DNA from: Allolobophora icterica
Lineage: Eukaryota > Annelida > Clitellata > Crassiclitellata > Lumbricidae
Assembly (NCBI GenBank): GCA_963556255.1
Contig: OY744613.1
Coordinates: 35,836,055 to 35,900,054 of the forward strand
Direction of reading: 5' to 3'
Length of the DNA: 64,000 nucleotides
A model generated the notes under the pieces. The model was not told the origin of the DNA and did no database searches. It saw only the letters and a program-made list of their open reading frames with translations. Shown here in pieces: positions 41,887 through 63,064 of this stretch. Position 1 is the stretch's first letter. Each line of letters begins with the position of its first letter. The translations under genes and the position numbers were made by a program.

Positions 41887-42075
41887 CCTTTTAGCGGTGT
41901 ACGGACATTATCCCTCCCCCGGACATTATCCCCCGAACATTATCTTCCCGGACAAAATCCCCCGATATTCGGTAGGACATAATCCCCCGGACAAAATCCC
42001 CCTCTGCGCAATTAGCCTATTTCTACATTTAATTGATAAAACCTAATTGCCCTGTTGCCCTACTGTCAGGTTGTT

Positions 42076-43227
42076 GGCTGCCGGACATTTACCCTCTGGA
42101 CATATTGCCCCCGGACATATTCCCCCGGACAGTTACCCCCGGACACTTTCCGCCTCGCCCCTCCGAATCTCAGTAGGTCATTACCCCCCGGACCAATTAC
42201 CCCCGTGGATTTATGTATGTATGTCTGTGTGTATGTATGTATGTATGTCTATATGTATGTATGTCTATATGTATGTATGTATGTATGTATGTATGTATGT
42301 ATGTATGTATGTATGTATGTATGTATGTATGTATGTCTGTATGTATGTATGTATGTATCTATGTATGTAGGTAGGTCTGTATGTATGTATATATGCATAT
42401 ATGTATGTCTGTATCTATGTATCTGTTGTATCTATATATACATATATGTATGCATGTATGCATGTACGTATGTATATCTGTATGCATGTGTATGTCTGTA
42501 GGTATGTATGTCTGTATGTAGGTCTCTATGTCTGTATATCTGCATGTGTGTACATATGCATATATGTATGCATGTATGTATGTATGTATGTACGTATGTA
42601 TGTTTGTATGTATGTATTTATGTATGTATGCATGCATGTATGTATGCAGCATGTATGTATGTATGTATGTATGTGTGTATGTGCGTATGTATGTATGTAT
42701 GCATGTATGCATGCATGTATGTATGTATGCATGTATGTATGTATGTAACTATGTATGCATGTATATATGCATGTATGTTTGCAGTATGTATGTATGTATA
42801 TATGCATGTATAATAATAATAATAATGTATGTCTGTATGTATGCAAGTATGTATGCATGTATGCATGCATATATGCATGCATGCATGCATGCATGTATGT
42901 ATGTATGCATGTATGTAGGTATGTATGTATATATGCATGTATGTATGTATATATTCATTTATGTATGTATGTATGTATATATGCATGTATGTCTGCATGT
43001 ATGCATGCATGTATGTATGTGTGTATGCATGACATTGTATGTACATGCATGTATGTATGCATGTATGTATGTATGTACGTATGTATATATGTATGTACGT
43101 TTTGATCATTGTATGTTGCATTGAGGGGGAAATGTCCTAGTAGAGGGGAGAAAATGTCCGGGGGTAACTGCCGGAGGGGAATATGTCCGGGAGGAATATG
43201 TCCAGAGGGGTAAATGTCCCGTTCACC
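42076..43227. mobile_element. GGACATT-type element nested in the long copy
   Basis: Tips GGCTGCCGGACATTTACC and (complement of the right end) GGTGAACGGGACATTTACC lead to about 90 bp of inverted GGACATATTCCCCC-like repeats (42083-42205 and 43126-43218). The 9-bp direct repeat CAGGTTGTT flanks it (42067-42075 and 43228-43236), and the host reading resumes exactly as in the short copy at 62520. The centre is almost all a TATG array. Confidence 0.85.
42213..43110. repeat. ~890-bp (TATG)n array with variants
   Basis: TATG units mixed with TATC, CATG, TGTATGCA and one AATAATAATAAT patch (42812-42825). It fills the centre of the nested element. Long Tyr/Met/Cys/Val and His/Thr frames on both strands come from the repeat. 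Confidence 0.95.
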
Positions 43228-43236
43228 CAGGTTGTT

Positions 43237-43636
43237 AATGTCGTAAAGGTATACTTTACGACATTACGACTTGTTAGTGTCATTCACGTGTAAAATTAAG
43301 ACTTGTTAGTCTCATTCTGTCACCTATTTATAAAGTTAAGACTTGTTAATGTCGCCTAGTTCTTAACTTAGGGCTTGTTAACGTCAGGATCCGCGAGGTA
43401 AGCTGCCCAAAAAGCGGATCAGGCGCAGCGCCAAGCCGCCACAGGCCCGTCTGCTGCAGCTGTGCCAAGATCGGCGCGACTGAAGAAAATCCATCGAAGA
43501 AACGCTGCACGGACTTGGACATAACATTCGCGGATGATTCGCCTTTAGATTTTTTACAGCTTTAGAGACAAACTTGGGACTACTATAGTCTAATAAACTT
43601 TTCCATTGGTTTGTGCTATTAGGCTAATTTCTAGAA
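43237..43636. other. Interior of the GGACATT transposon, conserved with the short copy
   Basis: Reads in reverse against 62220-62530. Shared landmarks are GACTTGTTAATGTC-like words, TTCTTAACTTA, GCCCAAAAAGCG, CTGCAGCTGTGCCAAGATCG and CTATAGTCTAATAAACTTTT. A GACTTGTTAGT motif recurs at about 50-bp steps (43267-43380). One + frame gives a basic stretch ending LLQLCQDRR, and this piece is also recognisable in the other copy, so a coding remnant is possible. Confidence 0.6.
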
Positions 43637-61129: not shown

Positions 61130-61440
61130 CGACCCCCATTATCGATGAGCCGCTGTTTATATTTAGCATCGTTGAAACTCTGTACATAGTAACGGCTATT
61201 GGTGTGGTCACAGGCGCTGGTGAGCCCCCCGACTGCCAGCTGCTTCAAACACTCGACACTTTTCGTGCTGAGGGCCTTCTCTGTGAGGTTTGGAAGAGAC
61301 TAGACGATAACCACCGGGCGCTTTGCTTGCACAACGCAACAAGGTCTATCACCGCCGACGCCGTCGAGTTACCAGGTCTTAACGACGCAGCCTGTCGTTC
61401 TTTGCTTGTGCTTATTAAGAGTCCAGGGTACGTGTGACTC
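61130..61440 (+). other. Open frame of unknown nature after the LINE
   Basis: From about 61195 the + frame reads VVTGAGEPPDCQLLQTLD, then FRAEGLLCEVWKRLDDNHRA, LCLHNATRSITADAVELPG and LNDAACRSLLVLIKSPG before a stop at 61438. It is GC-rich and leucine-patterned, unlike nearby non-coding DNA, and looks like real coding sequence. I do not recognise the family. It may be the end of a transposon protein. The upstream frame (from 60979) is LINE-derived. Confidence 0.3.
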
Positions 61441-61806
61441 ACTAGTCAGTTGAAGGAAGTCCAAAAGCGCGTCGCCTGAGGTCTTTCCTTTTAGCGAAGA
61501 CGAACAGGTGCTTCAAACGTGGACGTTCCATAGTGATAGTTTGTCCACAGTGGTTAAGTTGCGTGCCATCGTGTTCCGTAAGACAGGTGCTCATCTAGGC
61601 TGGATGGTGCTAGTGTTCCGTAACAGAGTCTGTCCGTTAAAACTATCCCCAGCAAGCCTGACTGAGCCACTAATTGTAACTGGTTCCACTTGGGCAGGGC
61701 CGCCGACAGAAATTCCGGGCCCCTAGGCAGAGCAGTCACGGGCCTCTAGGCAGCGCAGTCGCGGGCCACTAGACAGAACAGTCACGGGCCCCTAGGCAGA
61801 GAAGTT

Positions 61807-62703
61807 GAGTGTAGGACATTATCCCCCCCGGACAAAAGCCCCCCCGGACAAAAGCCCCCCCGGACAAAAGCCCCCCGGACAAAAGCCCCCCCGGGGTAGG
61901 ACATTACCCCCCGGCTAGGAAATAATAACCTATATTTCACACATATATATCAAACATACATATATACATACACTCATAAAATACATAATTATATACATAC
62001 AAACATATACATACATGCATAATATACATATATACATATATACCTACATATATACATATATACATGCATATATACAAACATACATATATACACACATACA
62101 TATATACATACATATATACAAATATACATACATATATATATATACATAAATACATACATACACCTCAACATAAGTCGGAATATATTTCAATTTGTTTAAT
62201 AAGAAGAAATATATATTTACAGTTTGTTTAATTCGAAGAATGATTACAGACCAACGTAAAAGTTTATAAGACTATAATGGTCCAAAATTTGTCTTTCCAT
62301 CACGGCGATCTTGGCACAACTGCAGCAGACACTCTTTCATTCGTTAACCTTAGTAACAAGGGTGCGGGAGACGGCTTGTAGCTGCTTGGCGCTGTTCCTG
62401 ACTCGCTTTTTGGGCAGCAGACCTCGCGAATCCTGACATTAACAAGCCTTAAGTTAAGAACTAGGGGACTAACAAGTCTTATGACACTAACAAGTCTTTA
62501 GTCTATACGTTTACAACATTAACAAGCTGACACGAGGGCAACAGGGCTAGTAAAATTTCTCAATTAAATGTAGAAATAGGCTTATCACACAGAGGGGGGA
62601 TTTTGTCCGGGGGGGATTTTGTCCTAGCTAAAATCGGGGGGCTTTTGTCCGGGGGGCTTTTGTCCGGGGGGGATAATGTCCGGGGGGATAATGTCCGTTC
62701 CCC
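61807..62703. mobile_element. GGACATT-family transposon, short reversed copy
   Basis: Tips GAGTGTAGGACATTATCC and (complement of the right end) GGGAACGGACATTATCC lead into inverted arrays of GGACAAAAGCCCCCC, GGACATTACCCCCC and related words (61813-61915 and 62596-62695). The 9-bp direct repeat AGAGAAGTT flanks it (61798-61806 and 62704-62712). The interior reads in reverse of the long copy 41896-45480 near both of that copy's ends, so this 897-bp element is a deletion derivative lacking the SAP-like part. Confidence 0.88.
61935..62165. repeat. (TATACA/CATA)n tract inside the short GGACATT copy
   Basis: Mixed ATAC, ATATAC and CATA units. The His/Tyr-type frames arise from it. Confidence 0.9.
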
Positions 62704-63064
62704 AGAGAAGTTACGGGCCTCTAAACTATCTTTTGGCTTTATATAATTATAATATCGTACTGTCGTACGAAAAAAAATTGAAATAATGAAAGTGCGTGTA
62801 CGACCGAACGATATTATATTTATAAATATACAGTATATACAACTATGATTTTATTCAGATGCTTGAAGTTTAAACTGATTGTAGGCCTAGTTAAGCTTCA
62901 GATAAATTCGACAGATAATATATTTTAAAAGGCCTAAATCATAAACTTTGTATAACTGATTATAATATTTTTCATAAGTTGATTGCGGGCCCGGGCCCCT
63001 AAAAGTCGCCGGGCCCCTGGGCATTTTCCCCCTGCCCCTCCCTCTCGGCGGGCCTGCACTTGGG

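Follow-up and report, generated by a model that had tools for sequence, protein, structure and literature searches.

The window analysed here is a 64,000-nucleotide stretch of Allolobophora icterica DNA (GenBank assembly GCA_963556255.1, contig OY744613.1, positions 35,836,055 to 35,900,054, forward strand), and all coordinates below refer to it. It holds three elements, LONG (41896-45480), SHORT (42076-43227, inside LONG) and E3 (61807-62703), whose two ends are arrays, inverted relative to each other, of GGACAnnnnCCCCC-like units 14-16 bp long. We call them the GGACATT family. An earlier note, made from the sequence alone, had placed three elements with inverted terminal arrays at these positions, each between a different 9-bp direct repeat. 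All six ends could be read off as described, and the repeats were found at both flanks of each element: CCTTTTAGC for LONG (41887-41895 and 45481-45489), CAGGTTGTT for SHORT (42067-42075 and 43228-43236) and AGAGAAGTT for E3 (61798-61806 and 62704-62712). Thus all three elements carry a 9-bp target-site duplication with its own sequence, although that of E3 may be read as 9 or 10 bp, a leading C extending the match to 10. The three duplications are not due to chance, since only 31 of 49,939 pairs of random 14-bp flanks from the window had 9 bp or more in common. In addition, 26 of the 28 occurrences of GGACANNNNCCC in the window fall within LONG, SHORT and E3; the total compares with a mean of 0.88 and a maximum of 4 in 60 first-order Markov sequences of equal composition. 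The reading of LONG, SHORT and E3 as transposons holds.

Anatomy of the terminal arrays

Each array begins with a short tip followed by a stack of GGACA-type units. The left array of LONG (41896-42002, + strand) consists of the tip GGTGTAC, five GGAC units and one decayed unit, GAACATTATC; a GGTA break precedes the last two units. Its right array (45395-45480, - strand) consists of the tip GATTGTA and five units. SHORT ends in arrays of seven (42076-42206) and five units (43118-43227). The arrays of E3 each hold six units, behind the tip GAGTGTA on the left (61807-61915, + strand) and GGGGAAC on the right (62596-62703, - strand). Five of the six tips are 7 bp long; that at SHORT's right end has 8 bp. 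The unit heads number 34 over the six ends (5, 5, 7, 5, 6 and 6). Most units measure 14-16 bp, the spacing being longer where a unit has decayed, and in all six ends the array is interrupted 69-100 bp from the tip by a break ending in TA, beyond which lie one or two further units. Tips match between homologous ends of LONG and E3: GATTGTA pairs with GAGTGTA (GAxTGTA) and GGTGTAC with GGGGAAC (GGxGxAC). It follows that an element has a different tip at either end.

The units resemble each other most within an element. Over 9 nt, the mean number of mismatches was 1.61 between opposite ends of an element, 1.84 within an end and 2.50 between elements; none of 5000 label shuffles matched the within-element likeness, a purely descriptive figure as the 34 units share history and are not independent. 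Folding of E3 as single-stranded DNA gave -140 kcal/mol, while 20 shuffles averaged -79 (z -11.9). The elements thus have what defines foldback elements, inverted ends composed of short tandem repeats that can fold back (folding: E3), and likewise the long terminal inverted repeats (TIRs) with a terminal motif and short tandem repeats, an architecture not exclusive to Mutator-like elements (MULEs).

LONG as a nest of mobile elements

LONG and E3 are related in opposite orientation. BLAST aligned reverse-orientation blocks of 181, 122, 55 and 49 bp at 82-87% identity and further blocks, chiefly in the end arrays, at 73-81%; with nested inserts excluded, 494 of 631 aligned columns were identical (78%), and the homology is bounded at the tips. 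In LONG the homologous interior, all on the + strand, comprises 42003-42075, the last 9 bp of which are the left duplication of SHORT, 43237-43614 and 45312-45394. The interior of E3 (61916-62595) starts with a TA-rich microsatellite and continues with the reversed LONG homology. The earlier note had also claimed that the long and short copies share interior sequence in reverse orientation, which is borne out for LONG with E3; SHORT, with its interior TATG-type microsatellite, has only end repeats and simple-repeat matches in common with either. At the site of SHORT, E3 has a single CAGCTTGTT with both flanks aligning, versus two copies of CAGGTTGTT in LONG. E3 is therefore a related empty site, which confirms the duplication of SHORT.

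The second insert is a non-autonomous ISL2EU-like element of 542 bp (44768-45309) with an 18-bp TIR (16 of 18 positions identical) and a 2-bp AT duplication (44766-44767 and 45310-45311) in an A-AT-T context. For this insert too E3 is a related empty site, reading AAACAAACTGTAAATA where LONG has AAACAAAT and ATTGTAAATA. ISL2EU elements are marked by an AT duplication in A-AT-T, a THAP-HTH-DDE transposase and tips that usually begin with GG (PMC4482050); the nested element has the AT duplication, its tip is AAGC rather than the usual GG, and only a DDE fragment of the transposase is retained. This remnant (44868-45083, - strand) matches DDE_Tnp_4 (PF13359) with an E-value of 3.4e-12. A weak SAP-domain match (44834-44959, + strand, E 0.0036) stays below the Pfam cut-off at 17.4 versus 23.9 bits; it is convergent to the DDE remnant, and the two resemble the remains of two convergent genes. 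At E<=0.001, 22 of 29 candidates were related to the DDE remnant (68-85% identity over the matched part), all 22 possessing HTH_Tnp_4 and DDE_Tnp_4 domains and one (P0143) also THAP; the brittle star Amphiura filiformis is the named source of one relative. A scan of a viral contig collection with the DDE alignment returned 77 pattern stretches, with no relative among them.

The third insert is a fragment of a long interspersed nuclear element (LINE) on the - strand, with approximate limits 43615-44756, whose open reading frame (43721-44770) crosses the junction. Of 7996 candidates scored against this frame, 627 matched it at E<=0.001, and among the 120 matches listed there are relatives with a reverse transcriptase domain (PF00078). 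LONG is therefore a nest, an E3-like element holding SHORT, the LINE fragment and the ISL2EU-like element. Because these three are nested inside it, its own family sequence amounts to about 740 bp and not 3.6 kb. A single family member, E3, thus supplies the related empty site of two insertions that differ in duplication length.

Several features lie beside these elements. LONG and E3 each hold a second array (43268-43386 and 62434-62528) of four CTTGTTA-type words 18-40 bp apart; several of the words, reversed, read GACATTAACAAG, and GACATTA is common to them and the end repeats. The words are possible further candidate binding sites. Of the four words in E3, the first is the counterpart of the one struck by SHORT in LONG. 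E3 also has a local duplication of TTTGTTTAATNNGAAGAA at 62180-62240, adjoining the position of the LINE and ISL2EU-like inserts of LONG, and a second LINE-like fragment lies to the right of LONG (45751-46725, - strand), with 53% identity over 230 aa to the nested one.

Parts of exons of a Delta/Jagged-type Notch ligand are found on the + strand at 28399-28731, 55656-55907 and 57744-57818, with matches to MNNL (E 9.3e-18), to DSL (E 2.4e-20), preceded by a sub-threshold MNNL end (E 0.0013), and, in the third piece, to Jagged/Delta EGF (E 3.5e-08). LONG and SHORT, located between the first two pieces, probably lie in an intron, and E3 is downstream of the EGF piece. These exons mark the host as an animal; a similarity search with the Notch-ligand exon yielded 26 candidates, none of which reached E<=0.001. 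Minisatellite and simple-repeat tracts such as GAT/CAT runs, with long repetitive open frames, occupy 28700-30550, 4030-4460, 40300-40700 and 59480-59930.

Transposase search and superfamily assignment

No transposase domain of the family itself, of MULE type or of Merlin type was detected in the frames scanned against Pfam, namely 11 pieces of LONG, five of E3, one flank stretch, 20 frames elsewhere and six more (among them one further LONG frame, and one a repeat from the LONG set); the totals are 148 complex frames of at least 70 aa in the window, 39 of at least 50 aa around LONG and 20 of at least 28 aa in E3. LONG, SHORT and E3 are non-coding copies. Repeat patterns were also sought in contig collections. 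A two-unit pattern had no match in the viral or the genome (prokaryote) contigs, nor a 20-base pattern in the viral contigs. A looser pattern yielded 45 stretches in genome contigs and five in viral contigs, one match each and no relatives, where about 60 were estimated by chance for the genome contigs (by hand, at equal base frequencies). At one of these 50 loci (L019), on a Bacillus contig, at least three GGACA...CCC units fell inside 150 bp, but the repeat is a different one of longer period. Six repeat words of the family, searched in 5.39 million open-access papers, led to five only, whose titles (on glioblastoma, murine cytomegalovirus and tau) show no connection. The family itself may be undescribed, as the earlier note had it; its kind is known. 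The literature searched on foldback and MULE comparisons, judged mostly from titles, contained no report of the GGACATT family.

We consider it likely that these are non-autonomous cut-and-paste foldback elements mobilised in trans by a MULE transposase. MULE target-site duplications measure 8-11 bp (PMC6446971), and the three found here are of 9 bp, that of E3 possibly of 10. The tips had been said to match no superfamily that could be named. This can be improved upon: a 7-bp tip outside the inverted repeat, tandem repeats of about 14-15 bp and a 9-bp duplication make up the anatomy published for Mutator-like foldback elements of animals, namely Tm1 of Meloidogyne (PMC3169594) and Muta1/Muta5 of Aedes aegypti (PMC5225508). 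Several points weigh against the assignment: only three copies are available, all from one window; no MULE domain was found in the scanned frames, a part of all frames in the window; and the GGACA word is unlike the Tm1 repeat (CGATTCAGTATCCGC versus GGACAnnnnCCCCC here; PMC3169594), the likeness being one of architecture, not sequence. Moreover, foldback ends occur in other superfamilies, Galileo having a P-type transposase (PMC3573991), and according to the authors of Tm1 they arose in more than one (PMC3169594). Because of this multiple origin, and as the assignment rests on duplication length and architecture, we go no further than likely.

It is unlikely that these foldback elements belong to a different superfamily with duplications of comparable length, whether Merlin (8-9 bp), P/Galileo (7-8 bp) or hAT (5-8 bp), even though the earlier note had allowed hAT, MULE, Merlin or P by duplication length. 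At 9 bp, MULE and Merlin remain in agreement with the duplications, and hAT and P fit worse. P elements make duplications of 7-8 bp. Merlin, whose transposase is IS1016-like, is not known to have elements bearing arrays of the GGACA kind. The Merlin range (quoted in PMC4482050) fits 9 bp on length alone, and Galileo provides a precedent for repeat-bearing foldback ends with a P-type transposase (PMC3573991). On the other hand, all three duplications are of at least 9 bp, as opposed to 5-8 bp for hAT (PMC4482050), and P/Galileo duplications are too short, being 7 bp in Galileo, the TIR repeats of which are also about 210 bp long (PMC3573991).

Less probable still, a transposase that belongs to no described superfamily, or to a deeply separate MULE lineage, might read the GGACA stack instead of the tip, leaving the tips free to vary and the interiors open to exchange.

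The DDE_Tnp_4 remnant could be taken to mean that an IS5/ISL2EU-type transposase moves the family, with LONG as a deletion derivative of an autonomous element, which we regard as very improbable. The remnant does lie between the ends of LONG, with 22 relatives that combine HTH_Tnp_4 and DDE_Tnp_4, but it is situated in the separate 542-bp element with its own TIR and AT duplication, and hence does not belong to the GGACATT family. These enclosing ends, the AT duplication and the empty site in E3 tell against it as the transposase of the family. No target-site duplication is known for Spy. Four of the six family tips begin with GG, as ISL2EU tips usually do, whereas the groups treated in PMC4482050 have duplications of 2 or 3 bp, ISL2EU itself the 2-bp AT, versus 9 bp in the GGACATT family. 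For annotation this is a warning that a transposase fragment between transposon ends may belong to a nested element. Finally, that the arrays are a dispersed minisatellite lying in inverted pairs by chance, as their short units of variable number and the plentiful simple repeats in the window might suggest, is scarcely credible in view of exact 9-bp duplications at three sites, the related empty site and a LONG-E3 homology that ends at the tips.

Proposed mechanism and comparison with known foldback systems

For the favoured Mutator-like assignment, a transposase of MULE type, a DDE enzyme often equipped with a zinc finger, would be encoded elsewhere in the host and mobilise the non-coding copies in trans. 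It may recognise the repeated GGACA words, several molecules binding each end and pairing both ends, and would act at the tips with a 9-bp staggered cut. Unequal exchange would change the length of the arrays, and conversion, perhaps aided by folding back, would keep the two arrays of an element alike. The array as a multimeric transposase-binding platform, as the earlier note suggested, is a reasonable proposal by analogy, secondary transposase-binding sites being mentioned for the TIR repeats of Galileo (PMC3573991; PMC4079207). The idea is not new, since it was proposed earlier for such foldback ends. Should the words of the arrays be sites for the transposase, the three copies would offer a small natural series in which the number and sequence of sites vary.

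Similar anatomies are known in several animals. The TU elements of sea urchins have an outer domain of about 15-bp tandem repeats, interchangeable middle segments and 8-bp duplications; literature searches for them found no papers. Sea-urchin foldback elements are mentioned, without the name TU, in PMC4079207, which describes Tetris of Drosophila virilis. Tetris shares foldback ends with internal tandem repeats, duplications of 8-10 bp and only non-coding copies, and was assigned to Mutator largely by duplication length, but its repeats of about 220 bp are unlike the short units here (PMC4079207). Galileo, of the P superfamily, has long foldback ends with tandem repeats in some subfamilies and differs in the 7-bp duplications and ~210-bp TIR repeats already mentioned (PMC3573991).

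Closer counterparts are found in Aedes, where 10 of 12 long-TIR MULE families carry 9-15-bp subterminal tandem repeats (PMC5225508). In Muta1 and Muta5 a terminal motif of 10 or 8 bp is followed by nine repeats of 12 or 15 bp, respectively, compared with five to seven units per array here, and the duplications are similar in length at 8-9 bp, the comparison being one of architecture and not of repeat sequence (PMC5225508). Muta1, with its nine 12-bp repeats, has been called a type 2 foldback element and transposes in yeast; most of its derivatives have variable interiors (PMC5225508), and the interior of SHORT is likewise unrelated to LONG and E3.

Tm1, a Mutator/Foldback element, has 7-bp tips that are asymmetric and lie outside the inverted repeat, as observed here, and a similar order of parts: next to the tip comes GGA, then a variable number of 13-15-bp tandem repeats, and finally a conserved stretch with one further unit behind it (PMC3169594). 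Its duplications, found in 45 of 53 complete elements, are of 8-10 bp, most commonly 9 bp, without consensus, and it also occurs as small non-coding copies and nested elements (PMC3169594). A coding copy of Tm1 carries a Phantom-type MULE transposase (PMC3169594), as opposed to none in the frames scanned here. By analogy with these systems, the GGACATT elements look like one more family of the known Mutator/foldback kind and not a new class, and that kind gains an animal example with an unusually clear nest.

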